Positions 26,409 to 59,929 of a stretch of DNA of 64,000 bases are shown here, one piece after another (position 1 is the stretch's first letter; every line of letters begins with the position of its first letter). The notes beneath the pieces were generated by a model, which was given only the letters and a program-made list of their open reading frames with translations, was not told where the DNA came from and did no database searches. The stretch is from NCBI GenBank assembly GCA_029817715.1, contig JARUPY010000607.1, positions 3,720,001-3,784,000 on the forward strand, written 5' to 3'. Origin of the DNA: Melastoma dodecandrum (lineage: Eukaryota; Streptophyta; Magnoliopsida; Myrtales; Melastomataceae). The translations under genes were made by a program, and so were the position numbers.

Positions 26409-26564
26409 ATTGATATCAGTGTGGGTTTGCTAGAAAGCTTTCTGTGTGATTGCTAGTACAGAACTCTGTTGTTGTACCTAAGGATCATAATAACGTATTG
26501 TTGAAAGTTTTACATTAAGCAAAGTCAGGTGCTACTGAGTTACAAAAACTCATAACTGAGCAAG

Positions 26565-27514: not shown

Positions 27515-27521
27515 TTAGGTT

Positions 27522-28250
27522 CTATTGTGTGAGGAATCAATCCCTGTTTCGTTTTTCTTTTCTGATCTAAGTGATCATCTTTGTGGTTGTCTCTTGAGTA
27601 CTTACAGGCTCATCTTGAGAAGAGACAGAAACTGTGTGGAAATCCTCTGCTGAGCTATTAAGTGCCGAAGCATTGCTGTGAATAAGAAACGGACAACTCT
27701 CAGAGAAGTCGTTCTTCACTGTAAGGAATCATTTGTGAGGATTTATTCTTTAACACAATGTTGTCTTTGTGCTTTGATAGACAAGCTTATGCCTAAGCGA
27801 CAACGTACTGTGTGGAAATCCTTTGAGCAATCAACTGCCGAGTGTGGGCATCGTTCTGCTGAAAATGAGAAGACATCCATTGTGTGAGGAGCTGATCGTT
27901 GCCCAAGAGTGATCTCATTTTTAAAGGATTTTAAATCTCACTTGTTGAGATACCGAACGCTTAATGCAATGGTTTTTTGCACCCATTATTTTAATAGTGG
28001 AATCACCTCGTTGGTGGATAGTGGACGTAGGTTGATTAAGGCCGAACCACTATAAACTATTGTATCCCTTACGATCGTGCAAACACTCGTACGAATACAT
28101 ACTCGATCAAATCGTAACGGTTACAACGAAGCTGATCTCATTATAAGAAACGCTCTGCTGGAATACAGTACGCTTCCGCTTATATTGAGAAAGGGCGAAA
28201 AAGTGAAAACACTAATTCACCCCCTCTTAATGTACATAAACGATCCAACA
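27522..28250 (+). repeat. partial 3' LTR of the deleted copia element
   Basis: It begins abruptly in mid-LTR (TGTGTGAGGAATCAATCCC, matching about 25760 in the 5' LTR) directly after gag. The deletion therefore joined gag to the middle of the 3' LTR. It ends ...CACTAATTCACCCCCTCTTAATG...GATCCAACA. Confidence 0.85.
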
Positions 28251-29210: not shown

Positions 29211-30460
29211 CAGTTCCGTCAAAGACAGAGAACCAAAAACCGGGAACAAGATCTATCTTAATCACTGACAATCTTCATGGAGATCCAAAAAAGTTTTTAA
29301 CCTTTTGCGATTGCCGATCCTTCTTGGGTTTAAAAAAAGTTGTAAAATTTTTCTCGCTGTTCATCTTTTACTTCTGGTGGTTATGACTTTATGATATGGG
29401 GATATTAGTTTTAGCATTACTAATAAAATTATCTTAACTTATATGTTATTACCGGACCAAAACCTCCTCTTTTTTAGCTAGCAACTTATTTCGTCTAATA
29501 AGACATTAATTTTTTAGATTTTTAATTTTATAAATTTAAACTATTTCTAAGGTCGATTTATCAAACTATTCAACTATTATTAACAAAGAAAGGCTCCTCC
29601 CCCTTTGTTCCGCCTGTTCCTGGTGCCTTTTCTGTCTCTCCTGTAAATTAGCGGAACTGACGCAAGTTGACAGCTGCGGATGAGTTTGTCAAAAACAAAA
29701 CAGGGGGGGATAAGATCCGAAGCCTGTTCCCCCTCCCACTCCCTTCCATCTCACATCGACCAAGAGACAGAAAGAAAGAGAGGGAGGGGGTAGAGAGAGA
29801 GTCCCTTCACGAGTGCTTGGGGATCTCCATTTGTGTTGTATCTCGGGTTGCGTTATTTATTATATATATATATATGGTTGGGAGGGTAAATCTGTGTCGT
29901 GTACTGCTTGTTTTGGGGTTGATCTGTTTGCTGAGCTTGAGGGCTCTGCAGGGTTTCCTGTTTTTTGGTGGGAGAGCTGCCAAGTTTGGATTTTTCTTGG
30001 TTATTTGTTTGTGGGTTTTCTGAGATCTGCTTTTTGGGGAGTTGGGGAATGTCCTTGGTATATGCTCGGAAGTGAAATTGCTGGCGATTAGATGGCATTG
30101 TTGAAGCAGCCCCTCGTCTGTTTTTAAGGAGTTGGGTGTTTAGCTGGATGATTTTCTTGTGGATGTGATAGCTAAAAGGAGGGATTTGGTATCCAGTGGA
30201 TGTGTGATGTTCTGGGTATTGCAGGAATCGGGTAGTTGACTTCTGGGATTCCCACATTGAGGTCATTTCAGTCGTTCACTGTTTTGCTGGATCTCTTAAG
30301 GGTGTTCTGTCCTGCATTCAGTTTGATTCTGACTAGAACAGGCGGAAACAGCGGCATTCCCTTGAGAGGAGATAGCTGCTTTGTGTCTGGATTTTCTTGA
30401 GGAATAGTTTCTGAATAGAGGCCATGTTCTAGCTTTCGGATCTACCCTAAGTGATTTTTT
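29211..30460 (+). other. intergenic DNA and probable 5' leader of the IRX9H-like gene
   Basis: AT-rich DNA runs to about 29600. Then a pyrimidine/purine-biased stretch (GAGAGGGAGGGGG near 29780) and a (TA)n run at about 29860-29875 occur upstream of a T/G-rich leader. No coding frame with recognisable content. Promoter and transcribed leader of the next gene probably lie here. Confidence 0.45.
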
Positions 30461-32311
30461 ATGGCATCTATTAGAAGGACTTTATCCCTAGTTGCTCGAC
30501 CTGTATCATCAGTCAATGGAGAAGCATGTGGAGTTGCTTCTCCTTTGTCCCGGTCCTCCGCAACTCCAACTAATCAAGTCTCCTCTGGGGGAGCCATTTC
30601 CCCGCTGATGAGTTTATTGGATTCTCTGGCTCTGATGGTCGGTCTTTCTCCGCAGCGGTCGTCTAGGCCTTTTGAGCGGTCAAAGCCAAAAGGTCAGAAT
30701 TGGAGAAAGGCAATACTACATTTATTCATTTTCTTTACTCTCGGCATGTTCATCGGTGTTAGTCAATTTGCCTCGATGAGTGGACCAACAAGTTCAATTC
30801 AGAACCATGACGGTTTATCGGTTGAGATGATAGCTGCAGATATCAGCCATTATCAGTCGACTGATGCTAAATTGGCACCACATTCGGAGGAGCTTGAGCT
30901 AGGCAGGTTCACTGCACCAGTTTATACGGTAAACAGCCCTATCGTTGAACATGGAGAGAAGAACGGTGGTAAGCTTCTAATTGTTGCGACTCCGACACAG
31001 ACTGAGGCATTACAGGCATACTATCTCAATCGTCTAGCGAACACGTTGAAGCTAGTATCTCCCCCTTTATTGTGGATAGTCGTGGAGATGACTTCTCAGT
31101 CACCTGAAACAGCAAATATTCTGAGGAAGACGGGCTTAACATATCGTCATCTTGTCTGCAGCAAAAACCTCTCCGACATTGTTGACAGGAAAATTCACCA
31201 GAGAAATGTTGCTGTGGCCCATATTGAAACTCACCATCTTGATGGAATCCTTTATTTTGCTGATCAGAATGGCGTCTATTTGGTTAATATGTTTGAACAG
31301 ATGAGGCAAATAAGGTACGGATTTCATTACATGAATACCATTAAATGGTGAACTAGATTTTGCAAATGGCTTGGTGTTAAGAATGTTAACGGGTCATTGA
31401 CTCTAGAAATATATGTTATGGAATCAAGTTGTTTGTATCATTGATGATAAAAGTGTCAACCAATAGGATTTGTGTTGACATCTTTGGCAGATGTCGAAGT
31501 TGAGGGATTTTGTATACACCATCATTCTTCATATGTCATAATTGAATAACTTAATCCGTTTACATTTTTTCCAAAAAGAGACATGATTAATCAGTTGAGG
31601 GATTTCACTTTCATCTAAATTTCCGGGCTGTGTGGCTTGAAGGAAACTGCGCAACTAATGATGCGAGTTGCTTTTCTTGGACTCCAAATTGTTACCACTC
31701 AAGTAAAACAACTATTGTCTCATTTTTTTGTGCAGACGGTTTGGAACCTGGATGACAGCTGCAATATCGGCCGATAAAGGGAGTGTGTTGCTTGAGGGAG
31801 CCATCTGTAACGGGACCAATGTTATGGGATGGCATACATATGACAAGAGAAGAGGATCGAGAAGATTTTATGCCGATTTAGTTGGCATTGCCTTAAACAG
31901 CACCATGATCTGGGATCTAAAGAGATGGCATCGACCTACCCTTGAACCCATCAGGCAAATTGATGCATTGAAAGACGGAAAATCAGTTAGTCACTCAATA
32001 TATCTCTTCCGTTGCAGTCAATCCATCTATTAACGAGTTGCTAAATTGTTTGTTTCTTTTTTGTTTTTGGTAGAAATTGGTTTCTTTTTAATCTCAACCT
32101 AGTTTGGATCGTCTTACGATAACTTTGCACATGCACGCAGGCTAGCTCATTCATCGAGCAAATAATGGAAGACGAAAGCCAGATGGAATGCTCTACGGAA
32201 TACTGTTCCAGCATCACTGCCTGGCACTCGTATGCTGACATGTCGAGTTCTTCCTATCCAAGGGGTTGGACGATGAAGCAGAATCTTGACGTCATCGTCT
32301 CCCTTTCATAG
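30461..32311 (+). CDS. IRX9H: GT43 beta-1,4-xylosyltransferase, IRX9H-like, 3 exons, 424 aa
   Basis: Exons 30461-31314, 31736-31985 and 32141-32311 splice in phase to 1275 nt. MASIRRTLS at the start is the N-terminal signature of the IRX9-like (IRX9H) branch. A single membrane segment at residues about 84-103 (AILHLFIFFTLGMFIGVSQF) gives a type II Golgi protein. The GT43 domain follows from about 168: LLIVATPTQTEALQAYYLNRLA, SPPLLWIVVEM, HQRNVAVAHIETHHLDGILYFAD, RRFGTWMTAA, GWHTYD, ALNSTMIWD. Members work with IRX14 and IRX10 types to extend the xylan backbone. The usual acidic motif reads YFADQNGVY here, as in plant members that lack a full DxD, so a structural rather than catalytic role is possible. 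The end of the protein (ITAWH then a Ser-rich tail) is typical. Confidence 0.93.
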
Positions 32312-36233: not shown

Positions 36234-37448
36234 TCACGTGTCGAATTTCGGCTGGAAAGCTTCGTTGGTTATGTCGATTTGGGTTTTGCGGGATGAAATG
36301 AATAACCATCTATACACACTAAGCGGCAATTCTTTCCACGTTGAAGTTCCGTCGACCGGCAAGCCTGTTAATCGTTCTGTGAACAATTGGCAACCACAAC
36401 CTTCCTGTCCTTGTCTCTCCCGTACTCTCACCAACCTGAACGGATGGCGATTCGGGATATCCATGTCCAGATCTATTAGCGAACCTCGAAAGGCCAGTGA
36501 TCTCAGATACTGACCTCCTGCCCTCCTGACATTGCTCGGCCTCGCAGAGTTTCTGAATCCAATCCCCTCCTCTATATCCTCCATAATGTTGACCCTGTCC
36601 TTGCTCGCATCATCAACCCTGGTAAACAACTGGCTTGTTGAAGTGCTGAGCATCTCGGAGCTCAAGAGCAGCAAGTCCAACGAATTCAAGTCGCTCCACC
36701 GCTCTTTTATGACCAGACTCCGCACGACTTTCTTATGATTGAACCTATGTAACATATTTCGATTCCCATGAGCCCTGTCCCCTTGTTCGATCGGATGTTC
36801 GGCCTTCCTAATCCTGTCGAAGAACTTACTCCAATCCCCCCGGCTGAACCTTGGAGACCGTTGGAGATTCTCCTCCCTCTTGATGTAAATATCCACATCA
36901 GTCCCCCTCAACGAATTCGAGTCCCTTGATAGGAAACTCTGAATGAGTGAATCATTCGGCACGGAGAGCTCCCTAGCCTCGTACTTGTATCTGCAGAGTG
37001 GACAGGTGGGGTGGTTCTCGAGCCAACGGTCGATGCACGTTGTGTGGAACGCGTGGTTGCACTTGGGCAACAACCTTAGCAACTCCAAGTCTTGGAACAT
37101 CGACATACACACAGCGCACTCGAGTCCCTGCTTCAACCCCTTGAGCAAGGAGAACTTAAAGATAGGGAGGGAATCAATCACGGCCCTGTCGAAGCCAGAG
37201 CAAGGTGGCCCCGAACCATTCAATGCGAAGTACCGGACTCTGCCCAGGGGGTCGTCAGGGATCCTGTGACAGTACTTCAAGTAGATCAGGACTAGGAATA
37301 CCACGGCGAAGGTGAGGCAGAGAACGGCTCCGATAACGGCCGAACTGGGGCCTCTGGTCAGGAACCCAACATCAGAAGCTGCGGAGACTCCGATGAAATG
37401 CCCCAACAGGGAAAAGATCGCGATCCGACCGACGAACTCCTTCTTCAT
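36234..37448 (-). CDS. RING-H2 E3 ubiquitin ligase, ATL family (ATL42/43-like), single exon, 404 aa
   Basis: ATG at 37448 (complement), stop at 36234-36236. Residues 1-23 form a signal peptide (FVGRIAIFSLLGHFIG). A transmembrane segment spans about 37-57 (VIGAVLCLTFAVVFLVLIYL). The GLD box is about 84-97 (SGFDRAVIDSLPIF). The RING-H2 domain spans C111 to C152 with C111, C114, C130, H132, H135, C138, C149 and C152 in the ATL spacing, plus the conserved Trp142. The remaining 250 residues are unstructured, with a basic C-terminal part. ATL proteins are membrane E3 ligases in defence and nutrient signalling. The frame is open upstream to 37496, but the upstream codon is TTG, so the start at 37448 is preferred. 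The single exon is typical. Confidence 0.93.
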   Translation of the reverse strand: MKKEFVGRIAIFSLLGHFIGVSAASDVGFLTRGPSSAVIGAVLCLTFAVVFLVLIYLKYCHRIPDDPLGRVRYFALNGSGPPCSGFDRAVIDSLPIFKFSLLKGLKQGLECAVCMSMFQDLELLRLLPKCNHAFHTTCIDRWLENHPTCPLCRYKYEARELSVPNDSLIQSFLSRDSNSLRGTDVDIYIKREENLQRSPRFSRGDWSKFFDRIRKAEHPIEQGDRAHGNRNMLHRFNHKKVVRSLVIKERWSDLNSLDLLLLSSEMLSTSTSQLFTRVDDASKDRVNIMEDIEEGIGFRNSARPSNVRRAGGQYLRSLAFRGSLIDLDMDIPNRHPFRLVRVRERQGQEGCGCQLFTERLTGLPVDGTSTWKELPLSVYRWLFISSRKTQIDITNEAFQPKFDT

Positions 37449-38690
37449 GGGAATAAAAGCGTATTGTTGGATTGTAGATTCGGTTTTTGGATGCAAACGA
37501 GAGGGAGAAGGAGGGGAATGACACGGCCGCTTGAATATTCAAATGCATTTCTAAGGTGGAGCCGAACCAAACAGAACTCGGACAGTAATGTTTTGGGGAC
37601 ATCGCGAAGTCGACTTCTCGTTGATATCGTCGGTCCCAATTAGGTCGCAATGACAACTGTCACAAAGAGTTGCAGGTTGTCTTCATTCCTCGTGTTGTAA
37701 TCAGCAATAGCAAGTAACATGCAGGAACACCCCCGAAAAGATGGTGAGGTAATCACAATTTCTCTCCGGTGATCACGATGTCCCGTCCGACCGAGTCTCA
37801 CGCAAGTACTGCCAATGTATCTCTTCTCGCTTCCTTGTTAAATTCTCCTTCCCCGAATACCACTTTCACGGCTGGATTTAAATTCGCTACAGACGGCTGT
37901 TGATCGCCAAAAACCCAACAAAGGAAATGGCAACAACAACAATGACGTCCCTGTCATGACATTAATCAGTCTGCCATGCTTGAAAGCAGATAAGACAACG
38001 CTACCAACAAGGAGGAAGAAGAAGAAGAAGAAGAACAGAGGCATCGTCCGATTTTTAGTTGCCAGAAAAGACAACCTGCGGGATAAATAAGTAGGGACAT
38101 GGCGTGGGATCTCTTTGCTTCCATATTTTTTTTGGATCTTCATCTCAGGGGAAGCGAGAAGGCATCTGTCAGTGTAAATGTTTGTTTGCATGGTTAAGGA
38201 ATCCAACTTAACTATGCGGAGCTTGTGGCAGTTTCAATCGGGCCAAGCCCAACTACAAACAAATGCGAGAATTGCTCCGCGAGCCTAGTCGGGGTACGTC
38301 CCTTGCCTCCCTACCGCGGGCTTCTCTTGGCTATTCCGCGTTCATTAAATACATAGGATTCGTTTCGACACCGACCTGGCGGTTGAGTTCAAATGGTTCT
38401 GCGCGTGGTTTTCTTCGAGTGAGTCTCAGGGTTGAGTCTCGGGTACAGCGAGAACCTCATAGTTTGGAATGGAAGGGTACTGCTTAAACGGGTCGACACG
38501 GCAGCCCCTGACCCACTATATGTAAGATCAATTGAGTTATTGGGCCTACAGTGAGGCCCAAATGGAAGGACGATGAGAGGCAGGAAGGCCCAATTTTGGT
38601 GGCATCGTTTAATCATGATTAACACTTATATAATACATTAAATTTAATACATTTGCTTGCCTGAAGAGGAGAAAGAGGAATTAAATCACA
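37449..38690 (-). other. promoter region of the ATL gene and intergenic DNA
   Basis: No gene is visible. A GAAGAAGAA run lies at about 38010-38035, and GGCCCA-type motifs cluster at about 38240-38600 (for example GGGCCTACAGTGAGGCCCAAATGG and GGCCCAATTTTGG). Such site II-like motifs are found in plant promoters, but no adjacent start is evident on either strand. Confidence 0.4.
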
Positions 38691-41399: not shown

Positions 41400-41591
41400 T
41401 GTTGCACCAACTTACCATATTCAATGCCACACACACTCACTCACCTTCACACTCGTTTTCGTGCCTCTTCTTCGTCCGCCTCCCATGAATTGCCCGAATA
41501 CCCAATTTTAGAAAATCCAACCCAGTGTTATCATGGTATTGAAAAAGTCACCTAGAAAGACAAGTTTGGACATCATCCTCTCCTCGGAATT

Positions 41592-42332
41592 ATGACTCGG
41601 ACTGAAGTAGTTTTGTCCGGTTCAGACCACGAGGCCACCTCCAACTCACGGTCTTCCTCCCCTCCCTCCTCACCCGCTCCCCCCACGGCTTCCGACAATC
41701 CACATTCGGAGGTGAGGCCTACCGACGAGGCTGAGCCGACTGCCAAGAGGGCGAGGCGAGCTCGAGGCGGCGACGGCTCGGGCAAGCACCCGGTTTACAG
41801 GGGAGTCCGCATGCGCAGCTGGGGCAAATGGGTGTCGGAGATCAGGGAGCCGAGGAAGAAGTCCCGTATCTGGCTCGGAACCTTCTCGACCCCGGAGATG
41901 GCCGCGCGTGCCCACGACGTCGCCGCCCTAAGCATCAAGGGCGCCTCCGCGACCCTCAACTTCCCGGGGCTCGCGGGCTCGCTCCCCAGGCCGGCGTCCC
42001 TGTCCCCCCGCGACGTCCAGGCGGCGGCGGCGATGGCGGCCCGGATGGACGACCTCGACCGCCCTGTGGGCTCCTCCTCAGCCTCCTCCGGCGGGGGGAC
42101 CCTTTCGTTGGCGGGGGAGTCCTCCGTGGAGTCGGAGGAAGAGGAGCTGTGCGAGATAATCAAGCTTCCCCAGCTGGGAACAAGCTGGAACCCCTCGACA
42201 ACGACGGAGCTGGTCCTCGGGGACGCGGCGGATGGCGGGGGCTGGCTGTACCGTCCGCCGTGGATGCAGGTCGAAGGCCAGGGTGGCCTCGATTGGCTCG
42301 GCGGAATCGAAGGTTTGTTGTGGGACAAATAA
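41592..42332 (+). CDS. DREB-type AP2/ERF transcription factor, single exon, 246 aa
   Basis: One intronless frame, ATG 41592 to TAA 42332. An acidic/Ser-rich N-terminus is followed by a basic nuclear-localisation patch ([10 protein letters not shown], residues 51-60) and one AP2 domain at about 67-125 ([49 protein letters not shown]). V14 and E19 of the domain (WVSEIRE) mark the DREB branch. KSRIWLGTF and the [17 protein letters not shown] block after the domain resemble the TINY/ERF034-039 (DREB A-4) group. The C-terminus has an acidic [12 protein letters not shown] motif and WLYRPPW. Family role: binds DRE/GCC-type elements in stress-responsive promoters. The gene is GC-rich compared with its AT-rich flanks. 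Confidence 0.95.
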
Positions 42333-43722
42333 TTATTAACCGCACCACAAACTAATCCTTCTTTCCCTTTAGCAAAAACTCGTGCGTGTCTCTCAGTGAG
42401 AGCGTGTGTACATACTCGTATATTTTTACATCTTGCAAGAATCCAAAGTGTTGTAAAATTAGATTTGGTCGGGATTTCGGTCCCATTCTCCCCTTCCCTT
42501 CACCTTTTGATGTTTTCCCGCAAGAGTAATTCTTGCATGAACCTCTTCTCTCTTGAGTCAGAGAGCTTTGGTGTCGGGGGTACATTCAAGAATTTTCCAT
42601 TTTCAAGTTTCCTTCAATAAAATGTAAAAGTAAAATCCCCGACTCAATATAAAAGTTGTCGTGGGTTTGGTTGTTTCTTTCCAACGAGGAAGAAGACAAA
42701 ATTTTTTTTGTTTGTTGTTATTTTTTATTAGTGGTTTGATGAAATTGAAAATGGGATGGACCAAAAAGTTGGGTTGCAATTATTACGACGTTGGCCCACG
42801 ATTTGTGTGTGTGTGTGTGTGTGGGGAGGAGGGGGCAGGGGGTGGATTTTTTTAGGGAGTGCAAATTCTTTGGAGTCCCTTTCCGCAAAAGAAAATAAGG
42901 GATGATGATGATGATGCCCTGGGGAATCTTCTGTATAACATATTGCAAATGGGATGAGGGGGTGGTGTTTCGTGAAAATTATTGGTCCCAATTAATGCAT
43001 GATATGCCGGGAGGGTACAATGCAAGAAGAAGCTCTTTTGGAATAGGGTCGAGTGAGGGGACTCTCCACCCACCCACCCCACGACCCAATTATGTAAAAA
43101 ATGCATATGATCACGAATGATTATTATTATTATTAATCTTGATATAAATCAAGAGGACGACCGTCCACTTGCCTGTCGACAAGAGCTTCTTCGGATACGA
43201 ACGGGGGACTCGACAGCCGATCACTTACATTTCTAACAAAAGAAAAAACACAAGTTACTTGCTGTTTGTTGTCTGTACGCATCCAGAACCCTGCCTTCTG
43301 AATCGTATGCTATTGAAGAAGAATTTTACTAAAAAAATATATAATAAAAAAAAATGTGAGAAGGGGGGGTCATTTTTAAAGCATATGGCGATGGAATCTC
43401 CTGTCTTGTCTTTCTCCGACGAACAGCCCCAAAATTCTCCGATATTTCAAAAGTGATGTTCTTGCATTTGCAAAAAAGGGAGAGAGAAAAAGGAAAGAAA
43501 TCGATCGGATCGGTACGGCCGATTTTCTTGGATTTCCGAGGGAGGTGGGGGAAAGCAAATACAATTTATGTGGATTCATCGGTTTAAAGCGAGATGATAA
43601 ATGGAAACGGCCACGGTACGTGCACGTAACCATTACGTGCTTTTACTAAATTCGTCTTTTTTTATTTAAACTTTACTAAAAAAACACTTTTTTATTAATA
43701 TTATTATTCGATTTACTACTTA
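42333..43722 (+). other. ERF 3' region and intergenic DNA up to the MULE
   Basis: No gene is seen. It includes a (GT)n run at 42806-42824 and a palindromic GTACGTGCACGTAAC..TTACGTGC segment near 43616-43641. The last 80 bases before 43723 carry 'actaaaaaa'-like motifs resembling the adjacent inverted repeat, so the MULE border may not be exact. Confidence 0.45.
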
Positions 43723-44112
43723 TTTTTTAGTAATTTTTACTAAGAAATTATTGTTCATTTTTTAGTAAAAAGTACTAATTTTGCTTAGTAAAAGTTCAAA
43801 ATTTAGTAAATGGTCCGATGGGCTTTTGACTGAAATTAGTAATATTTTACTATTTTTTTTGAAAATTAGTAAAACACCGTTTAACTTATTAAAAGTGTGG
43901 AAATTACTAAAAATGAATACGGGTTTTGTAATTTTGTACAGATTTTTACGTGGAATTTTAATAAAATTTGGTAAAGTATTACAAAATATTTTAGTAATTT
44001 ACTAATCTAAACAGTGAATACCGAACCTAATTACTAACCTGTGGTCATTGTGAAATGACGAATTTGCCCCCGGTTCCGATTTACAAAATATATTACAAAC
44101 CTAATTACTAAA
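43723..44112 (+). repeat. left terminal inverted repeat of the MULE
   Basis: AT-rich 390-bp arm pairing with 54145-54534. It has many TAGTAA/TTACTA motifs. Its inner half (about 43911-44110) is repeated directly once more at about 44116-44275, so a subterminal duplication extends the left end only. Confidence 0.88.
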
Positions 44113-44115
44113 ATT

Positions 44116-44275
44116 GAATATGAGTTTCATAATTTATACTGATTTATGTGTGTGATTTTAATAAAATTTGGTAATGTATTACTAAATATTTTAGTAATTT
44201 ACTAATCCGCATAGTGAATACCGAAACTAATATTAACCTATGATCATTGTGAAATGACGAGTTTGCTCCAGATGC
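44116..44275 (+). repeat. direct duplication of the inner part of the left TIR
   Basis: The order TTTAATAAAATTTGGTAA, ATATTTTAGTAATTTACTAAT, GTGAATACCGAA, TCATTGTGAAATGACGA recurs after the left TIR with substitutions. The right TIR has no matching second copy. Confidence 0.8.
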
Positions 44276-44710
44276 CAATTTAAATCAATGCACGCAAAAT
44301 CCCCTGGACGATCAGTGCTACTGGGTTGGTCATGAACATTTAATTTCCAATAGTGAACATTTAATTGTTCACCTAATTGGGTGGGTGTTGACTTTGCAGG
44401 TGGTTTTCTTCTTCCCATACCCAGAGAGTTTTGCTATTAGAATCCCATCTTCCTCCTCTGTCCCTTGAAGAAATGTAAATTATCTTCAACCCGGAGCATC
44501 CAAGATTCGGTGAACATCTGTTTCCTCCCTTTATCATCTATTTGCTTCCTCTTTTGCTTCCACCCAAGATTCGGTGAACATCAGCCTCTTTTGCACCCAA
44601 AATTGTCCCCCGTGACGTGGTTTGGCACAACGGATTTTGCCTGGGAAATCCAAAGCTACTGTTGTTAACCTCTTCTTTTGATATATGTGGTTGTAGGTGA
44701 GCAGGATATG

Positions 44711-46596
44711 AATGACTTCTTCAATATGCTCACGGATATGAATGAAGATTAGTTGTTGAATATGTCATTTGGTACTGCTGAAGAAGCTGAAGAGTTAATT
44801 AAAATGTACGCGACGGTTCATGGCTTTTCAGTTATGAAAAGAGATCGTCAAAAACTTCGAAACGGTGAATGCGTTATGAGAAAATGGGTTTGCTCAAGGG
44901 AAGGGGAATGTTCCAATTCCCCTGTTATGATCCCCAATAAGAGGGTTAGGGCGTCCGTCAAGACAGGTTGTAGCTGTTTTTTCAAAGTTAGAGTCGAGGT
45001 TAATGGACAATGGACTTTGGTTGCTGTTCAGTTGGAACACAATCATGAAATGGTGAGTAATGTTTTGTCCTATTTCATGTGAGAAAGGCACAACATTTTC
45101 GGCCAAGATATGACATTAGTACGCCGAATGCTTGACATTGGATTTAGACAGTGCGATATTATGGGACTACTTGTACATGTATCTGGTGGACACCCACGTG
45201 TTGGTTTCCTAATAAAGGACCTCAATAACCGAAAGCTGAAGGAAGAGTCAGTTGGGGATAATGTTGGTTGTGATTCCGTCCTTGCATACCTCATTTCTAG
45301 GAGGAATAGTGAGACTGCTATGACATTTGAAACATTTGTGGAAAAAAATGAAGTCAATCGCATATATTGGGCCGACAGTACCTCCATAGCTGATTACCAA
45401 TCATTTGGCGATGTCGTAGCTCTAGACTCTACCTTCAAGACGAACAAATATGGCATGCAAATGGTCATCATCGTGGGTGTGAATCATCATCATCAAACTA
45501 CTATCTTTGGGGCTGCCTTGATGACTTCTGAAACCATTGCTGACTACACTTGGTCATGTGTACTCATACACAGGTCATGGGAGGGAAACATCCCATTAGC
45601 ATTGTCACGGACGCCGACTAAGCAATGATTGCATATGTGAGAGAAGTTTGGCCATCTGCAAGACACATGTTATGTCTTTGGCATTTCAGCCGGAACATTG
45701 CACGTCGTGTACAGGATTCGGGAATGCGAGCCCGTATTTCGTCCTTCATGTACAACAGTGGACCATCTGAAGAAGTTGAAGAGGAGTGGTATACTTTAAT
45801 GACACTTACAGGATCGATAAGCATAAGATGGCTATAACAGATTTATGCATGCAGATAAATGTGGTGGCAAACGTATCTTCACGGACATTTTTGGGCGGAG
45901 CTTAGAAGCACTCAACGTTGCGAACGTATGCATGCATATATGAAGGGATATGTCAAGGTGAAACATAAACCGCATGATTTCATACACAATTTTGAGCGTG
46001 CAGTAGCTAATCTTCGTCACAAGAAATATCAAGAGGATTTCAACTCATCGCATAAAGCGTTCAGGCCAATTACGATGTTGCGCCGACTTGAGGAGGATGC
46101 ACGTCGAGTATACACCATGACCTCTTTTCATAAGGTTCAGTCTGAGATACAAAAGGAATCAAGATTTTACGTGGAAAATTTGCTCGACGGGAACATTGCG
46201 AGGGTATACATTCTTTCCTGTTATGACGGTGAGCATAGGTGCGTGCAAGTATCATCTGCGAAGAATGCTGCCCAACTCAGTTGCAACTGCTTACATTTTG
46301 AGACCTTTGGTTTTCCGTGTTCGCACCTAGTCCACGTTGCTAAAATAGAAGGATTGATGTCCATACTAATTCATCTGGTGAAGAAAAGGTGGATAAAGAC
46401 AGCTAAAAATATAAACTGTCAAGCACTTTCAGGCCAGGAATACGGTGTAAATGTTGTTGACCTGCGCCAGGATATTCTCATGACATCATACAGACGTATG
46501 TGTTTTTTAGCCGGGAAATCGGACAAATCATATCGTCAACTTCGTGAAAGTATTGAAACTTTGACGTCGGAGTTGGAGCTTAGTTGCAGGGACTAA
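44711..46596 (+). pseudogene. FAR1/MULE/SWIM transposase (decayed)
   Basis: The first possible ATG (44709) is followed by a stop at about 44750. The FAR1 DNA-binding zinc domain follows (AEELIKMYATVHGFSV, KWVCSREGEC, TGCSCFFKVRV, HNHEM), with a TGA at 45080. In the same frame comes the MULE DDE domain head (ALDSTFKTNKYGMQMV, first Asp). A frameshift near 45570 is followed by ISIVTDAD with a further stop in place of Gln. Then WPSARHMLCLWHFSRNI, two stops near 45836-45858 and LRSTQRCERMHAYMKGYV. A SWIM zinc motif (LSCNCLHFETFGFPCSH, about 46282-46330) and the tail to 46596 are open. At least four stops and one frameshift rule out a working enzyme. A working copy would cut and paste the MULE by binding its ends. 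Confidence 0.9.
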
Positions 46597-47249
46597 TAAG
46601 GTAAGAAAACGGATGATGATCATGTTAATGTTAATTTCGATGACGAGGTTCGTCGACAGTATGTCATCCATTCTTCCAATATTAAGTGTCATGACAGCAC
46701 ATCTTGACGGCCTGAAATGTCTGGTGTCAACATCAAAAAAGAAGGTAACTTATGTAGTGAAAGTACTTCGAACATAGATTATAATGGATGCTATGATGAT
46801 AACTCTATTTATGGACAACAAAATATGTACCCTTAAGTCTTAACAAGGTCAGCAATTCAGGATCACTTCCTTTTACATCCACCTGTTAATGCACTACATT
46901 ACAAAATTCCTACTTTTCCAGGCAGTAATGCAAAAAGGGACCTCTGGAATGATCGTAGGGAATATGTACCACAGAATTAGTTTCACTATTGGAAATCAGT
47001 ATCTTATCGAGATCTCTATATGCTAGGGAATTGCAGCCACAGAGTTAGTCTCATCACTGTCGTCCAGTCTTTTCCTCTTGGCTTCTCCATCATCCTTGAC
47101 CCTTTGATAAATAACTTTCCTAATGTCATTCCCAAACCACTTAATAAGGCTTATCACAAGCTTCAACCTATCAACAACACCTACAATCTAACATTCAAAG
47201 GGTAGTTGTGTTAGTCATATATTCATTTGGCATTCATCAAGTCATAAAG

Positions 47250-50200
47250 GAGTAAACTATTCTGAAACTAGAACATACCACTTTCTCAGTCCCTTCCAAG
47301 GGTTCGGGCATGGACATGAACTTCATCACATATATTCCACAGTCGGCACTGCATAACACCAAATCATACGGGGATCTTTCTAAGTATTTTTCCTTAATAA
47401 GACGAATACTTTATGGAATTTGGACTTACTCATTTCAAGCAACCATTTGGTTGGAGACATTCTTCGGGTATGTTATATTCCAGGAGCAGATGTCGGGAAT
47501 TTGATCGACGGAAATCTTTTATTTCACTTTATTCTCTTCCATGATCACTCTCACAAGCTTCACAACACGGCGATGAAGGTTTGCCCTCCCATGCAAGTTG
47601 CTCAGTTTGTTGTTAAGTGTGTCCATTATTAACACTTTAGATGTCCTGAATGATATGATTTGTAATGTCCAATGGGACTCCGATACACACATCGGAATAT
47701 AAATCTGCATTCAATGTACCAAGCTTTTAGTAAAACTTACACAAGTCATAGACCAACTATATGTATAGGCTAACTAATTTTGATCTACACTTTAGTAAAA
47801 TTAGTTGGAAAGATGGATGAGGGAATGCTTACCCATTGCACTTCATGGTTCTTCCCAATGTGTGTAGTGTGAATATAGGGAAGCGGCATCCACTTTTGAG
47901 ATAACGGGCATGTTGCAGCACTGTACTGGTTTGCAGCAAGATTCTGGTGGTTGCGTTTATGGTCATTAAAAAATTACACATGACATTTATAAATCAATCA
48001 TTAATGCATGAAAAACTAACCCCTAACCAACTTGTAAGGTATCAAATCTTTTTCTTCTCTGAATCCACGCAGCTCCGTGGCATCACGGCATGGAAATCTA
48101 TGATCTGCATCATCGTTGACCATATATACTGAGATGCATTAAGTCGCATATGTTGGTTGAGTTGAAAGAAATTATTACATCATTGTCTATCCATCTATTA
48201 GGTTTGAGAGACAGCATGGCGTGCCTATTAACGTTGACGGATTCCGTCATACAAAGACATTCACTGCATAATAAAGAAACAATCAAAGTTACATACCCGA
48301 AAGGTCAAAGTAAAGTAACATTCCAAGACATAAGGGCCCAGGACAGCGACACTAACCTATGATCTCGTTCCTCATTCCAGGCATACTTTAGGATATTCCA
48401 TTGAGCCGGCGTAAACGCTTTCAGCTCACTTACAGTGATATCCTCTGGAATGATATTTTGAAGTGCCTATAAACGAAAAATTACAACATCTATAATTCTT
48501 CATAGATGAACATAGCAGACTGAATGATCTTGATCGACGCTTGATGTTTCCATTCAATAGTGCCACGTTGTTACACCTCAGATATATTTGTGCGAAGACG
48601 CTTCTTTGTTCGCGTTACTGGCTTTGGTAATACAAATGGGGAGGTCTTGAAGGAGGAGGGCTTCCTCTCTGACGTACGACGCGTCTGGACCTGCCTTGTA
48701 TTCAAAACATTTGTGGTAGACGATCCGCTTTCTTGGAACCCATGAGCAAATTAATATTACTGTTAAAAAGATTTTGCATAGTTAATTATAAAATCCGACA
48801 CGATTCACCTTCATTTGCTTCTTCTCCAATCTTCTCCTTCCCTGTATCTGTGGGAACAACTTTCTCTTCCTCTTGAACTGCAGCTGGATCTCCAATCTTC
48901 TCCTTTCCTTTAGCTGTGGGAATAACTTCCTCTTCATCTTGAACTGCAGCTCGTTTTTATTCCGCATCAGTAAAGATGCGACACCTTCCTCAGACTTAGT
49001 CATTTCAAATTCAGATTCACTCTCAGTGTTTGTTGTATGACCATCAGTTGTGCCAACGAATGCGCCAATCTTGTTATGAGCTCGAGCCAGTTGTAACTCA
49101 CGAGGATCCGAATAATCATCACTACCCTCCGGAAGTGGCTGTCGTTGTTGAGTAGGATCGAACGACACGATGCTTCTTTCAGAGACCATGGTGGACCCCA
49201 CATCATAGATAGGTTTCTTCAACCCAATTGGCGGGTGACCGGGTTCAGCAGGTGGAGAGGCAGACTGCAGGACATTGCCAGACCTTTTCAGTGGATCAAC
49301 TTTTAACTGAACTCCTCTTTCGCCATGATCTACGTTAACATCAGTCATAACATTTGCCTGGTTAGTTTTGCAGTCGGGTTGGTCTATCGAAAGACGTTCT
49401 TCAGCTCTCAGTCGTCGAACTTCGGGGAGTACAGCGGATAATTTTCGTAGGATGTGCTCACTACTGGCTTGGAGTCTTCTTACCGAAAATTCAACAGTCT
49501 GGTCATGAAAGGAATGGTTTAAATTGGTAAATTTTAAACCTATGTGATATGCAAATTATAAACAGTTATAGTCTGAAGCAATGATTTCAAATTACCATCA
49601 ACCGACGTATCACGATTTGCATCTGGCCGGACTCGTTTGCGCAGTCGCCTTCATCATCTGCGGCCATTTCGAATTCGTCGGCTTCCTGTTAATGGAATGA
49701 AGAACAACAAACAACGCATAGAAGAACATGTTGTCAAAACTTTTTAGTTATTTGTCTTTCCATGTGCATCATAACTTGGACCATACTTGCAATATCCGTA
49801 ACCTCCGCACTTGTTACTTTGAAAAGGGATTTTAGACGATCGTCATCCCAATCTTGACAAAGTGGCGTGGACCTATTGCTCCTTGATAACATAGCGTCTG
49901 CCTTAGAACTTTTACAAACATAGAATAACTGCATTTGACACAACCAACTGCACTGGTTACAAGAACAAGGAATGATGACAGTAATAACATCACTCATTAA
50001 ATAATATTAACCAAGAGTATACTAAAAATTCTCACCAGAAGTAGATGCACGTAACCACCGATGTACTTCGCTTCATGTCCTTGAAATGTCTTCACTTGGG
50101 TATACAAATTATCAACCACATGAGTTGCCCAGTCAAATTTGCATATTGCCTCTACATCCCAGGTGACAAGGAGATACTCCATGTAGATATCAAACGCTGT

Positions 50201-53200
50201 TGTTGGGCACAAGTAGCAGCCTATGATGAAAATTACAACCTCCACTCTCCACAACTCGTCGGGAACATCTCTTGATCGCAGTTGATTCTCAACAGATTTT
50301 AGAGAAATTTTTCCTTTTTTGAGGTGATCCTTTAGCTCTGGCCGGACTGTTTCCATGTGTCCACTAAATGGGACACATATTTTGGTAGCTGGTACGCCGA
50401 TTATGGCCTCAACATAAGTAGACAACAAGGGTTGTTCAAAACCATCGATTAACAAGACCCTCTTCACTGGATCGAACAACCTTAAACAGAACTTCAAGGC
50501 GTTGTGATTCACATGCCTACTTGACAAATGAAGCAGACCATCAAATCCTAGGTCTGTCAAGGCTGACCTCTTCGCCTCGTTGAATGTGTTGAGGACTGAA
50601 AATAGCTTATTCGGACTACACCGGGTATAAAGGTAATCCTGTAACAATACAGCCACGGGAATCTCAATCCAACTATGACAATTACTGAAAGCATTCAGTA
50701 AAGAAGGTTATTGTTAGCCTTGGTTTTGATGATGAGCTTGAGAAGCTAGTCGCTGTAACACTTCGCTTATTCTTAGTGATAAGTTTGAGAAATGTGTTGT
50801 GAGCTTGAGAAGATAGTCGCTGTAACACTTCTCTTATTCTTAGTGATAAGTTTGAGAAATGTGTTGCTGAACCACAGCGAGTAACAGTTGCAGATTGCTG
50901 CGTTACAGTAAGCTGTTACTGTGATATTACGCATAAACATTGAAAATATGGAAATATATTTTTCAATATTTATATTTTACTTTGGACTATTCGTCTGAGT
51001 GTCCAAGTTAGTTTAATTTGGCTTAATGGTCTCATTATATATATTTAGGGAACTAAATATCGTGAGATTAGCTTTCCAAGTTTATTTTTGGAAACAAAAT
51101 ATTTCTCTGATATCCTTCAGCAATGTTACGCTGTAGTAAGAGAAAGTATCAAATCCAATATCCGGTGAAGGAAGTTACCGTTGGGGACTTTCCCTCTGTG
51201 GCACAGCGAACCGTTGAGCAGAGTGTTGCTGAGCCTGAGTTGTACGTGGCTACACTGCAGCAAGTTGATACTGCTTCGCTTCGCCTTTTGGAAACCTGGA
51301 AATATTATTTCCTTTTGAAATATATTTCGGATTATTTCGAAATAAATTTCTTGAAATACAATGGATTTTTCAAATCCTTTCAGTAGGCAACACAATAGCA
51401 AAATGTTGCCTTCCCAATTAAAGATTTGGAATCGTCATAATGTACCTGGACATCTTCTACGAGGTCTTTCCATAATTAGACAAGGCATTCGGATATTATT
51501 CTGACATATGCGTAAGAAATGCATTACTGAACAATCTGAGAAGTATGTTCCTACGCTTCAGAAATATCTTGCTGCATTACAGCGAAGCGGTTCTGCGTTA
51601 CTGCGCTGATGAAGGAATAATTATTATTCCAAATTTGCTTATTGCAATCTAATCATATTTAATGATTAAATATGTTACCTGATTCTAATAACCACGTGTT
51701 ATTACCAGACAATAACGTTTGAAAAAGATTTTGACAAGGAAATTCTATTTCCTATTCTATCTCAATCAATATTAAGGAATTTAGTTATTCCATATTTACG
51801 TGACTAATGATTTCAATAATCACTATGTAATCTGATGAAGTTTAGATCAGATTATACGTATGGGGAATATCATTAATGATTTCCTTTCCTCTTTGTCATT
51901 GTGACCGTTGAGCATCCTGCTGCTGATCCACGATTACAGCTTCATGTATTCTGATTTTAGGAAACAAATTATTCGTTTTTGGAAAACCGATTATTTGTTT
52001 CGTTCCTTTTTATACCAGACGACCCTCACATAATCTCTGGACGTTTTCGAACGTTTTCTAAGTGGGCTGAGTGGCTGAGTGCGTCTGTGTGGTCTAAGTG
52101 GTCTAAGTGAGCTTTGTGCGTCGACGGAGAGCGGAAGGTGCTAAGTGTCTCCTGGTTCTTATTACTCGCAAACTGCGTGCGAGGGTGTCAAGGGGCTGAG
52201 TTCAGATTCCTTGATCGTCGTGAGAGGGACTAGGTGTCCTCGGTGCGTTCAACGAGCAGCCGGCGAATCGTCTGAGGGAAGCTAAGTGAATACCTGTGCT
52301 GATTGCAGTAACCGGTTGCTGACCCATCGGCAAGAAGCCGTTCTTGTCGAGTCTTTTCGCAGGGATGTCTCGAGCCTACGGAGTTTGAGCAGTTAGACAC
52401 GCACTTGCGGGTGCGCGCCAGAGGTCTCGTGCCTGCAGGGTAGAGCAGGAGTTGGGAACGCCGCCAGAGTGGAAAGAGTTCCTCCCGAGCACAGGGGTGC
52501 TGTGTAGAAGTCTTGAACGCCTGATACAGACGGTTAGTAAAGCAGGTTGCGTGGAAGCCAACGGATCGGAAAATTCCACCCTAGGCACTGGGTGTGCAGT
52601 GCAGTGAGTCACAGCTGTGGTAACCGTGCACGTCCAAACTGAGTGTAGGACGAATACCTTCTAAGTGGCTTTGTGGTTTTCTTTGTGATCTTTGTGGTTT
52701 CTATCTTCGTGATCTTTGTAATTCAACTTTGTGGTTGTCTCTTAAGCAAGTGCAGGCTTATCTTAAGGAGAGACAAGATCTGTGTGGAAATCCTCTGCTG
52801 AACGACTAAGTGCTGAAGTAATCCTTCGCTGTGAAACAGAAACGAGCTACTCTCTGAGAAGCTATTCTTCATTGTAAGGAATTATCTGTGAGGATTTATA
52901 CTCTAACATAACGTTGTCTGTGTTCTTTGATAAGTCAGGATTATATTAAGCAACAACGAGCTGTGTGGAATCCATTGAGCTACCAACTGCTGAGGATAAG
53001 CATCATTCTGCTGGAAACGAGAAGACGTCCACTGTGTGAGGAGCTGACCGTTGCCAATAGTGATCATCTATTGTACGAGATTCTAAATCTCACTTTGTGA
53101 GAGGAACATACGCCTAGTGCAAGGGCTTTTTGCACCCATTATTTTATATAGTGGAATCACCTTGTTGGTGGAAAGTGGACGTAGGTCAATTAAGGCCGAA

Positions 53201-53607
53201 CCACTATAAATCACTGTGTCCATTACGATCGCGCAACACTAATACGAAAACCTACTCGACAAAATCGTAACAGTTACAGTAAAGTATTTCTCATTCTGAG
53301 AAACGCTCTGCTGTGATACAGTACGCTTCCGCTTACACCAAGAAAGGGCGAAAAAGTGAAAAACACTAATTCACCCCCCTCTTAGTGTTCCTGAACGATC
53401 CAACAGTTGTGCTATTTACCTGGGCAACACAAACTGCCTTAGACTTTTTCTTTTTCGAAGTACTAGGTGTATTGCCTCCTGTACATGCGTCTGTCTGATC
53501 TTCATCGACTGCCTTAGACTTTTTCTTTATCGAAGTATCAGGTGAATTGCCTCCTGTACATGCGTCATTGTCATTTCCACAACCAATATCGAAATCTCGT
53601 TCAATCT
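47250..53607 (-). CDS. Ulp1-like (C48) cysteine protease gene carried by the MULE, multi-exon, status uncertain
   Basis: The gene reads from about 53607 down to 47250 and encodes a Ulp1-like SUMO protease of the type carried by plant MULEs. Exon pieces on the minus strand: 53607-53420 (two copies of a DACTGGN..KKKSKAV repeat), about 50684-50036 (DUF1985-like head, LHLSSRHVNHNALKFCLRLFD), 49990-49740, 49685-49598, about 49500-48782 (coiled coil, two KRKLFP repeats), 48745-48570, about 48470-48370 and 48250-48150 (LKPNRWIDNDVI, substrate-channel Trp/Asp motif). The catalytic parts follow: about 47700-47519 (SHWTLQII with His, VLIMDTL with Asp) and about 47340-47290 (SADCGIYVMKFM with Cys). The usual Gln before DCG is not evident. 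Exon phases were not all checked, and 53420 to 50684 do not join in simple phase. Confidence 0.65.
48790..48960 (-). repeat. 22-residue tandem repeat within the Ulp1-like gene
   Basis: The encoded peptide repeats ELQFKMKRKLFPQLKERRRLEI as QLQFKRKRKLFPQIQGRRRLEK (each about 66 nt). The DNA at about 48826-48955 shows two adjacent copies. Both copies are basic and could carry a nuclear-localisation signal. Confidence 0.75.
50712..53405 (+). mobile_element. solo LTR (copia, SIRE-like family) nested in the MULE
   Basis: It starts TGTTAGCCTTGGTTTTGATGATG and ends GATCCAACA. Flanking 5-mers are GTTAT (50707-50711) and GTTGT (53406-53410), a target duplication with one mismatch. The same LTR family flanks the deleted element at 24234-28250. 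With no internal region and no second LTR, it is a product of LTR-LTR recombination. It sits in an intron-like gap of the Ulp1-like gene, about 14 bases from a splice donor on the minus strand. Confidence 0.9.
50734..50867 (+). repeat. 66-67 bp tandem duplication within the solo LTR
   Basis: The block GAGCTTGAGAAG(C/A)TAGTCGCTG..GTGATAAGTTTGAGAAATGTGTTG is present twice in tandem, with two or three differences. It arose inside the LTR, and the equivalent LTR at 24234 has it once. Confidence 0.85.
53440..53580 (-). repeat. about 72 bp tandem repeat coding DACTGGN..KKKSKAV twice
   Basis: The segment 'ctgccttagactttttct..cgaagta' is repeated at about 53441-53512 and 53513-53584, giving a duplicated Asp-Ala-Cys-Thr-Gly-Gly-Asn peptide with a Lys-rich tail in the first Ulp1-like exon. 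Confidence 0.8.
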
Positions 53608-53920
53608 CTGCATATATCAACAAATAAATAACTAACACCATCAAAACTTACACTACAATCTACAAACCGAGAAGCCTAACCCACTTACCACCGTCTACCC
53701 AAAGCCAAACCATCCCATACCCATACAGAAACCCAAAACCAAATCCTAACAATATACAGTGGATCGGAGGAGAGAAACTAGGGTTCGTGGGATCTCGGGT
53801 AGGATGAGTAAGACTTGACACGAGGGATTTACCCTGTACCATACACCTAAACCCAACTCCAGTAAACCATGCACAGGACTAAACAAAAAAATCGTAACTT
53901 TGAGTGGATCGGAGGAGACG

Positions 53921-54000
53921 ATTTAGGGTTGTGAGTTCTCGGCTGGTAAAAGGAACACGATTTAGGGTTGTGGGTTCTCGGGCAGTAAAAGGAAGACGAT
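53921..54000 (+). repeat. 39 bp tandem duplication near the right end of the MULE
   Basis: 'gatttagggttgtgagttctcggctggtaaaaggaacac' is followed by a second copy with a few changes, upstream (on the minus strand) of the Ulp1-like exon. It is not coding as far as seen, and may be the gene's 5' leader. Confidence 0.75.
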
Positions 54001-54144
54001 AAAAAAGGGGGATCGTACGTGATGTCATTATGTCAACCGGGAAGGAGGTCGCCGACGGAGATGCCAAGAAGAGGAAGGGGGATCGGAGGGGACGACGGGA
54101 GGAGGAAGGTAGATCAAAGGGGACGATGGAACCAAGTACAAGAT

Positions 54145-54534
54145 TAATAATTAGGTTTGTAATATATTTTGTAAATTGAAACCGGGAGCAAATTCGTCAT
54201 TTCACAATGACCACAGGTTAGTAATTAGGTTCGGGATTCATTGTTCGGATTAGTAAATTACTAAAATATTTTGTAATACTTTATCAAATTTTATTAAAAT
54301 TCCACGCAGAAATCAGTACAAAATTACGAAACTCATATTCATTTTTAGTAATTTCCAAACACTTTTACTAAGTTAAACATTGTTTTACTAATTTTCAAAA
54401 AAATTAATAAAATATTACTAATTTCAGTCAAAAGCCCATCGAACCATTTATTAAACTTTGAACTTTTACTAAGTAAAATTAATACTTTTTACTAAAAAAT
54501 GAACAGTAATTTCTCAATAAAAATTACTAAAAAA
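54145..54534 (-). repeat. right terminal inverted repeat of the MULE
   Basis: The reverse complement of 43723-44112 over its full length with scattered substitutions, ending ...AAAATTACTAAAAAA at 54534. Confidence 0.88.
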
Positions 54535-57500
54535 CAAAAGGGGGCGGGGCGTAGGCGAAGCATGATGTTTGGGGGTGGTGGGTGGTCGGGAACGTGTATA
54601 CCAAAGTCAAATCTCCCTCCACACGACACCGTAGGATAAAATTATTTTGTGTTTCTGGGGGGTTACTGTGTTTTGTCCCCCTACTATTATGCATCTTTGT
54701 TCATCCTAGAACAACCACGTCACGCTGTCGTTCGTTTGATATATATCACAAGTGTTCCAACTTTTGGCATCAATAATTTACGAGGAAGAGGACGTTTCTT
54801 ACAACTCTCTCCTTCGCGGCCAGTCAAGAATCATTGTATACGCACATACATAACCCCCAAATTCGAACGAACCCATGTGTTCCCGTATGCGCGCATGTTG
54901 AAGCGTAACGATTTCGACTAGAGCATGACATGATATGCCATTTGTTCCAATAACAAAAGAAGCATTTCGTATGACTTGTATCATCTATATCACTCTCTCG
55001 TGTCATGTATTCTACGGTTCAAAGTTTAGTCACACTGATTTTATTTGGATGTTACGTTCACAGTCCTCGTCGAGGTACAGCACGACGTGAGGCATTGGGG
55101 GTGGCCACAGGATGTCCCTGGGGGTGATATCATGCATAGCTTTTAACTCCATTTTAACTTATACAGTGTCGGTTCTTCTCCAAACCTGTCACCCTCAACT
55201 CTTGTCGTGTCGCCATCCTCTCGGGGTCCGACAAGTTTCGGGGGAAACAGGCCGGGGGTAAGAGCGATGTTTGTTGTGGTAAGACTTTTTTTCGGGGGGG
55301 TTTTGTAGGGGCATCGGTCACTGTTTTGTAGGAGACGACTGTTTCCCCTTTCCTTTGTTGTGAAATTATTTTGAGGGGTAGGGGACGACAACCTCTGCCC
55401 AAAATTTCAACCTTTGATTTGAACCACCACCCTCTCCTTTCTTGACTACACATATACACCAAATCCATCACCCGTAGATCTGTACTCATCACCAAATCAT
55501 TTCATCACATCAACTCGAAACAAATTCATTTTTTGTTTGATAGATTTATCATGCCATAATACGAGAGATGTACATGACTGGATCGATTTATTTCAAATTA
55601 AGTCAATTGTAAAAATATTTCGCATTTTAAGTTATTTAATTTCAAAATTTATTGAATAATGCCATAAACTCGACTTTATAAAAATCGAGTTCGCCACCTT
55701 CACGAGTTCCTCGAATTCGAATTAGATGAAAACTAAGTTCCTTAATAAATAATAATGGGTAAGTACAAAACTTTAAATCACTTGCACTCTAATTTTTAGA
55801 AATTTTAAAATGAGGTGTCCTAAATTACGAAATTTTCCCGTGAACTCTAATTAATAACCAAACTCCATGAATGTAAGCTACCTCTCAGTGGAACACTCTC
55901 GGGGTTAATTCGATGCAAAAATATCACAAATGATAAAGATATAATTCGGGTTTGCGACAAAACAAATACACGACTGATATTAGCCGGCAATGAATCGGAT
56001 TCTGCATATATAAAATACGTCCGACAAATATCTGCTTACGACAAGATAAAAATAGCAAATAGCAACCACCACCCCCCAATAACATTTTCTGAAAATTGGT
56101 CAAAGCCAAACGCCAAACCCTGAGTTCTTCCCTTGAACAATCAATTATAATGAACGACCATTTAGACAAAGACCAAACCAGCGGATTACGATCAATTATA
56201 TTATTGTACTTCGAGGGAATATTTATTCGTCCTCCTCTTCTTCGTTGGAACTTAGTCATTATTAATGACCTAAGAGCATAGCATAGCAAACCAAAAAGGG
56301 AGAAGGAACAAAAAAAAAAAAAAACCATCATCATTTTTAGGGGGGGGGGGGCCTCGACACGAGCATCTTCGACTTAGTTAACCAATCTCTAGTTTTTGCT
56401 TTTCTTCTTTTTCATAAATCATTGATATTTGAAAAATGTAAGCAAAGGTGGCATGCTTTGGCTTTGGCTTTGTCTGATTCTGGCTGGCCCATCCTATAAT
56501 AAGACGAAGGGGATGCGTTCGATTATGCTTCGAGACTCCTCCCATGTCGAGTTGGACTAATCAGGATTAAACAGCGTAATGATGACGATCCCCCTGGATA
56601 AATAAAAGAAAAGGAGGAGATCAATCACGGAGACAAAATGGGAATTCCTCCCTTTTGATCATTAAAGGTTAGGTAATCACGTAATAAAGTGGATTAGTTG
56701 GGGATCGTAGCACGATAATGATTTTTTCGCGTATGCAAATCGCAAGGCTCCAAATACCCAATACCACCGAAATCACGTCGATGTATCGAAATGATCGAAA
56801 CCTTTCTTTCTATCTTCCTTTCCGACAAGGTGTTATATTATCTCGGGTGACTTACTGGTGGTTACGTCAGTTTCAGTAGGGTTTGGACGAAGTCATCAAG
56901 GTTGGTAATGTATCAATAATTGATGTTCCGTTGGAGTATGTTTTCTTCAAATCCACAAAGATGGACATAACAAATACTTCTACGACTTCAACTTTAACCC
57001 CTAGGAATAAGAAGAAGAAGAAGAAACTGATCGGTCGAAATTCAGCATGATTAATATCAACTTTTAATAATTGACCATCGCCACGTCCCACGTAAATGAT
57101 TTGTTTAATACTTAAAAACCCTAAAAAAATGAAGAAGAATTCTCGCGTCATGATGAGGATGGAGAAAATGTTGTGTGTGTGTGTGTGTGTGTTGGGGGTG
57201 TGATTTGATAGTGATTAGAGGCTTGTGTAAAGATCATTTCCTCTTTTTCTTTTCATCTTTAATAAATCATTGAGCATCTTCCAATCAATGAATAATTACA
57301 CGGTACGGCCAGAGAATGTCCTAACAGTGGGGTAATAGTATCTCACTCTCCCATGCACATCCACACACACATCCTCCCCATATTGCACAGTAAAACTCAA
57401 CTTTCTTTCCCGGGGGGGGTTAATATGTCCAAGAACAAAGCTTCAAATCAAGCCCGGTTGTCCTCCACGATTCCAAAAAGGAGGATGTGAGATAGGGACA

Positions 57501-59152: not shown

Positions 59153-59929
59153 TTAGTACATTTTCGTCTCTGGCATCACTGTCGCTGGTATAACAGCAAC
59201 CGTCGCTGACCCTTGCAATCCTTCATCCTTCGCTGCTAGCTTCCTGCAGTTTTTCTTTATGTTTCCCATTTTACCATAATGGAAGCATCTTACCCGGTTG
59301 CTACCTTTGGATCTAGTCCTGCTTACTGTTAATGCCTCCATCATAGGTCGCCCTGCTTCATCCGTCAACTCTTTATCAATCAAATCTTTTGATAAAAGAG
59401 CAGACCGTACCTCGTCAACTGTGAGAACACTTCTCACATACAAGAACGTCTCCCTGAAGCTCCGATATGAAGCGGGTAGTGAACATAACAGCAACATCGC
59501 CTGGATCTCCTCATCGATCTTGTCGCCGATCCTCTCCAAATCCAAAGATGCAGACGACCAATTATCCAGGTAGGATTTAACGGACATACCATCCATCATT
59601 TTGAGCATGAAGATCCTTTGCCTGAGAAGAAGTTTGTTGCTCAAAGTCCTCGTCATGTACAGACTCTCCAACGCACTCCAAGGCCCGGCCGCTGTCGTCT
59701 CCATGAGCACGTTCGTCAGAACCTCATTGGATAGACAGTTGAATTGCCGATAACGCTCTAGCATCTATCTCCTCCACCGGTCAGAAGTCAACTTCGAAGC
59801 ACTCTTAGACTAATCTGTAAGAGCCTTCTCCAATCCACCCTGTACCAGTAGTGCCCTCATCTTGACTTGCCGCAAGCCGAAATTCATGCTCCTATCTAAC
59901 TTCTCGATCTCGAACTTGCCACTAGCCAT
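59153..59929 (-). pseudogene. copia gag (UBN2 type) with stops
   Basis: From ATG at 59929 (MASGKFEIEKLDRSMNFGLRQVKMR) the frame hits TAG codons near 59814 and 59768. It then continues open from 59764 to 59153: MLERYRQFNCLSNEVL, ALESLYMTRTLSNKLLLRQRIF, MVDGMSV-like loop, DEEIQAMLLLCSLPASY, and a degenerate zinc knuckle CFHYGKMGNIKKNC. A working gag would assemble virus-like particles. Here it is broken. Confidence 0.85.

Follow-up and report, generated by a model that had tools for sequence, protein, structure and literature searches.

A probable decayed Mutator-like element of Melastoma dodecandrum with a FAR1-type transposase, an antisense Ulp1-like protease gene and a motif array in its terminal inverted repeats

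Genes for Ulp1-like proteases are frequently carried by plant transposons, for reasons that are unsettled, and a 2026 review calls the precise function of the Ulp1 domain in these elements unknown (PMC13317346). A locus on contig JARUPY010000607.1 of Melastoma dodecandrum, where a gene of this type lies antisense to a FAR1-type transposase between long inverted arms, raises the question of whether the two genes belong to one mobile element and whether the protease gene had a part in its activity. The window, that is the whole stretch of DNA analysed, is 64,000 bases long with 41.4% G+C and, judged by its genes and the relatives of its transposase, is plant DNA. Positions 43723 to 54534 of the window are probably a single, decayed Mutator-like element (MULE) that formerly had two genes, the transposase being of FAR1 type. 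The element would have moved as a single unit, and the second gene would once have been functional and have had a role in it.

The terminal inverted repeats (TIR) expected of a MULE are present. The left arm (43723-44111, plus strand) and the right arm (54144-54534, minus strand) share 92.8% identity over 389 aligned bases in a global alignment, and the plus-strand transposase and the minus-strand protease gene are both enclosed by them. A blastn comparison inside the window aligns 43723-44111 to 54534-54144 over 391 columns, with 92.3% identity and an E value of 4.9e-164. The original prediction, made from the sequence of this locus, had described inverted arms of about 390 bp and had their outer coordinates right. 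The 28 differences between the arms in the global alignment comprise 23 transitions and 5 transversions, an excess of transitions that would be expected for methylated DNA.

On the left side only, as had been predicted, the inner half of the arm is present a second time, as an additional copy of about 180 bp. This copy, at 44103-44282 on the plus strand, duplicates 43902-44083 with an identity of 83.5% (blastn) or 84.4% (global alignment). Over the inner-half unit, identity is 92.3% between the first left copy and the right arm but 84.4% between the two copies on the left, so the additional copy probably predates the last event that made both arms alike. An imperfect palindrome (80.8%) takes up 52 bp on the outer side of the left arm (43727-43778), and this end could therefore fold back.

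The transposase, at 44762-46596 on the plus strand, was identified by Pfam and tblastn and has its domains in the order FAR1, MULE, SWIM. The FAR1 domain, at the N-terminal end, has an E value of 1.1e-18 and the MULE domain (PF10551) one of 4.5e-13, with the second half of the latter in another frame (E 3.4e-7). The SWIM match scores 19.5 bits against a cut-off of 19.6, and 16.6 bits in a longer frame translation. The call of a FAR1-type transposase was correct. A protein search found 84 homologues among 4596 candidates. A jgi protein with 33% identity is the best match, followed among named proteins by those of Vitis, Reevesia, and Rosa (34%), and several of the named matches are annotated as FAR1-RELATED SEQUENCE 5. 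In an alignment to one relative (P0003), there are four in-frame stops within the body of the gene, at 45080, 45619, 45835, and 45856; a fifth, at 44750, is upstream of the ATG at 44762. There is also a change of frame between approximately 45553 and 45604. This is common to all six of the relatives, out of the 84, that were compared by tblastn, each of which matches in two collinear pieces. The transposase is considered to be broken because of the four in-frame stops and the one frameshift, and from its reading frames this copy is dead, albeit with few lesions. The catalytic residues D, D, and E, which are presumably those of DST, VTD, and QRCE, can still be read by eye.

On the minus strand, the region at 47318-47881 matches the Ulp1-like (C48) proteases, as had been claimed. 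Pfam matches Peptidase_C48 (PF02902) to a single raw frame at an E value of 3.2e-5 (24.3 bits, cut-off 20.7) and to the hand-joined pieces at 2.1e-7 (31.4 bits). The joined pieces also resemble yeast Ulp1 weakly (1euv; E 0.00077). Two matches of the joined pieces to CorC structures (E 0.05-0.06) are weak and were taken as chance. The H, D, and C motifs, SHW (47677), MDTL in MDTLNN (47626), and ADCG (47347), share one raw frame, with the Q motif, QPNG (approximately 47459), in another; an intron that escaped recognition or a frameshift would lie between them. Stop codons are present between the pieces. Because these lie in more than one frame, the protease gene has probably decayed too.

Two open stretches follow upstream of the protease pieces, the first of 257 residues and including a 66-bp tandem repeat, the second of 236 residues. 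The first belongs to a probable exon at 48800-49552, in which the repeat encodes the peptide LQFK-KRKLFPQ twice (48845-48949). A probable exon of the same gene at 49736-49928 has splice sites placed only by eye and by a simple scan. It is followed upstream by the long open stretch at 50036-50707, with a weak match to the Plant Mobile Domain (PMD), and a probable upstream exon at 53420-53607 encodes DACTGGN-P-TS-KKKSKAV twice, with a 75-bp spacing. All of these are on the minus strand. The two lysine-rich peptide repeats of the original prediction are thus present, at 53566-53432 and 48949-48845. Tandem peptide motifs are one criterion for a gene like VANC, the second gene of the VANDAL elements, and they occur here as two different two-copy repeats, although this is a loose criterion. 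The AlphaFold model of the stretch at 50036-50707, made without an alignment, has a mean predicted local distance difference test score of 34.3 and is useless. Upstream of the gene there is in addition a 39-bp tandem repeat (53918-54000), with a related stretch at 53758-53798.

The arms contain a dense array of a short motif, TTAGTAA or TTACTAA (TTASTAA, where S is G or C). The original prediction had mentioned neither this array nor the lesions of the transposase. There are 25 copies in the 956 bases of the arms and additional copy, 15 on the left, of which 12 are in the main unit, and 10 on the right. Outside of 43600-54540 there are 10 copies in the 53,059 bases of the window. When the arms were simulated 1000 times with a first-order model the mean was 0.75 copies and the maximum 5. 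Five consecutive copies in the outer left arm (43762-43866) are all in the same orientation, and 9 of the 13 aligned sites are intact in both arms. Judged by its sequence and placing, the array would fit either an anti-silencing system similar to that of VANC or an array of sites for binding of the transposase, and the latter accounts for it at least as well. Among the titles and abstract openings of the literature searched, no TIR motif array was found for a Ulp1-carrying, FAR1-type MULE.

It is possible to suggest how the parts of such an element could have worked together. An intact transposase would bind and cut the long TIR, as is inferred from its family. The antisense product, with a weakly PMD-like head, a repeat-rich middle, and a tail that is a Ulp1-type cysteine protease, would be an accessory protein that keeps the element active by countering silencing by the host, perhaps through recognition of the TIR array. 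By analogy with the VANC and Kaonashi proteins, an anti-silencing role for the second gene is conceivable, if on balance rather unlikely. More specifically, this could be a TIR-bearing MULE of FAR1 type that encoded a sequence-specific anti-silencing protein for itself, an analogue of VANC with a Ulp1 tail, directed at the TTASTAA array of the TIR, to which the duplication on the left adds sites. This fuller version is distinctly doubtful. If true, anti-silencing of the VANC type would not be limited to VANDALs, and there would be a role for the Ulp1 genes that are so widespread in plant transposons.

Several results weigh against the two-gene element or the role proposed for its second gene. 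The original prediction gave the second gene a DUF1985-like head, and this did not hold: Pfam lists no DUF1985 in the minus-strand gene at E values up to 1, although its filters drop most matches above approximately 0.1. The PMD match of the 236-residue stretch that takes its place is 15.0-15.5 bits against a cut-off of 34.9. The whole second gene has no protein relative at an E value of 0.001 among the 7996 candidates sharing most words, and its protease end has none at 0.01 among 446 candidates, both with a query containing two mistyped residues. The interior of the element has only 3 copies of TTASTAA, one of them inside a long terminal repeat (LTR). The arms differ in 5 of 91 motif columns and in 25 of 300 other columns, so the motif is not clearly better kept than its surroundings. 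The words known from Arabidopsis do not explain the array either. That of VANC21, YAGTATTAY, was rejected, with 0 copies in the element; of the words of VANC6, AGTTGTCC is not found in the element and AGTTGTAC is found once, within the LTR. The family of the transposase is likewise left between two groups. In Table 1 of PMC6446971, the plant Jittery group has an N-terminal FAR1 domain, as here, SWIM or CCHC at the C-terminal end, where this transposase has a SWIM match just short of the cut-off, one open reading frame (ORF), and TIR that are absent or 39-292 bp long. The locus departs from these values in its second, antisense gene and its TIR of approximately 390 bp, but they are table ranges rather than strict criteria. 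Since half of the plant Hop sub-group in the same table also has FAR1, a FAR1-type transposase that is Jittery- or Hop-like is as far as its sequence would take the assignment. Finally, there is no convincing target-site duplication (TSD), sought at the 8-11 bp of a MULE, at the ends as called. The exact 9-10 bp repeats near the ends are the TIR motif itself, and the remaining candidates are mismatched or simple sequence. Apart from this, the arm-to-arm conservation of the motif sites and columns lends no support to selection on TTASTAA after insertion.

The alternative that survives best keeps the same element and sees the Ulp1-like gene as a mere passenger without a role, the TIR array being transposase-binding sites. 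This has not far from an even chance of being correct. The array is nearly limited to the arms, the expected binding place of a transposase, and the protease gene looks decayed, with stops between pieces in different frames. In addition, the grapevine study argues in its section 10 for repeated capture or frequent loss of Ulp1 sequences (PMC2528002). Against a passenger, Ulp1 genes are recurrent in the MULEs and CACTA elements of several plants, as described in PMC2528002, and the 2026 review connects Ulp1 genes with VANC-type anti-silencing (PMC13317346). The two tandem peptide repeats also resemble those of VANC.

It is less probable, and on the whole unlikely, that the paired arms are not the true ends, with the left end further out and the right end truncated. 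The lack of a convincing TSD at the called ends speaks for it. Just beyond the left arm (43643-43722) TTACTAA occurs twice more, at positions 43643 and 43673, and 43643-43698 forms an imperfect palindrome (71%), and the left end of the element may reach beyond the paired arms. The similarity of the arms, however, stops sharply at 43723 and 54534.

This region does contain one nested insertion, the solo LTR of the original prediction, at 50712-53405 on the plus strand. It is 2694 bp, begins with TGTT and ends with AACA, and is flanked by GTTAT and GTTGT, which match at 4 of 5 bases. A diverged relative in the same window, at 24234-28250, matches with 67-82% identity in its main pieces, which extend to both terminal bases of the LTR. 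This second copy has an unmatched gap at 26399-27550, which is perhaps a further insertion, and short matches to the LTR are also present at 6078-6115 and 6258-6284. A simple splice scan with trial exons would place the LTR between a probable exon of the second gene that ends at 53420 and one that starts at 50684. The phases of these exons disagree across the gap and, with the LTR removed, only a few tens of bases are left between them, below the normal size of a plant intron. The weakest alternative, a composite in which the C48 gene came from a separate transposon at the site or inserted into it and is surrounded by the arms through nesting only, could draw on this nested LTR and on the carriage of Ulp1 genes by CACTA elements too (PMC2528002, section 10), but is very improbable as the interior has no second long inverted pair, the longest found away from the arms with ungapped seeds being 37 bp at 70%.

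A single decayed element with two genes remains the preferred reading of the locus. A single broken copy adds little alone, and an intact sibling family from this plant would be of greater importance. The only part of potential interest is the putative connection of the Ulp1 gene with the array in the TIR; a Ulp1-like gene and a defined TIR motif array within one element would provide a concrete candidate target sequence. Elsewhere in the window, an ORF with an AP2 domain (41556-42332) stops 1391 bp short of the left arm. Other ORFs encode a glycosyltransferase family 43 domain (30455-31351) and a RING finger (36234-37538), and there are pieces of Copia reverse transcriptase (155-1511), an RNase H-like (RVT_3) piece (6546-7052), and a piece of Copia gag (59153-59764).

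Of the known systems, the VANDAL elements with their VANC genes share with this locus a second gene with tandem peptide repeats, which are reported from the variable regions of VANC, and dense short motifs in non-coding DNA (PMC5735166). According to the same paper, the arrays bound by VANC21 in Arabidopsis are of another word, nine bases long, with sites also in introns and intergenic stretches, and the targets of VANC6 carry other words. Here, in contrast, the motif is another one and is nearly limited to the TIR, and DUF1985 was not detected. VANDALs commonly have degenerate TIR, which go together with VANC genes (PMC10398659), although some members of the VANDAL clade have TIR (PMC6446971). 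Several plant groups on the MuDR side (42, 47-50) have PMD genes, often antisense, in Table 1 of PMC6446971. An antisense second gene, weakly PMD-like in this case, is shared with them, but at this locus the PMD score falls short of the threshold, and the transposase has an N-terminal FAR1 domain, which is tabulated there for the plant Jittery and part of the Hop sub-groups.

Carriage of Ulp1 sequences by MULEs is itself already published, for Arabidopsis, melon, rice, and grapevine and including Jittery-like elements, so the class is known. The locus had been called Kaonashi-type. The Kaonashi (KI) MULEs of Arabidopsis do have a C48 gene reversed relative to the transposase (PMC2528002), and this part of the comparison stands. 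They are, however, described as non-TIR elements with mudrA (PMC2528002, PMC13317346), unlike the long TIR and FAR1-type transposase found here. Kaonashi is covered in PMC6117577 and in PMC13317346, where it is linked to VANC. In grapevine, Ulp1 sequences are reported in MULEs with and without TIR and in both orientations, including some Jittery-like families, and melon, in Jittery-like MULEs, and rice are cited as well (PMC2528002). By description only, the multicopy Jitvine-1 and Jitvine-2 of grapevine (11.9 and 14.4 kb) differ in that no TIR is listed for them in Table 4 of that paper, which is silent on which Jitvine carries Ulp1, whereas this locus has TIR of approximately 390 bp with a dense motif array. 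As here, the Jittery-like MULEs of grapevine and melon in section 10 of PMC2528002 bring a Jittery-like transposase and Ulp1 together in one element, and they are a closer precedent than Kaonashi.

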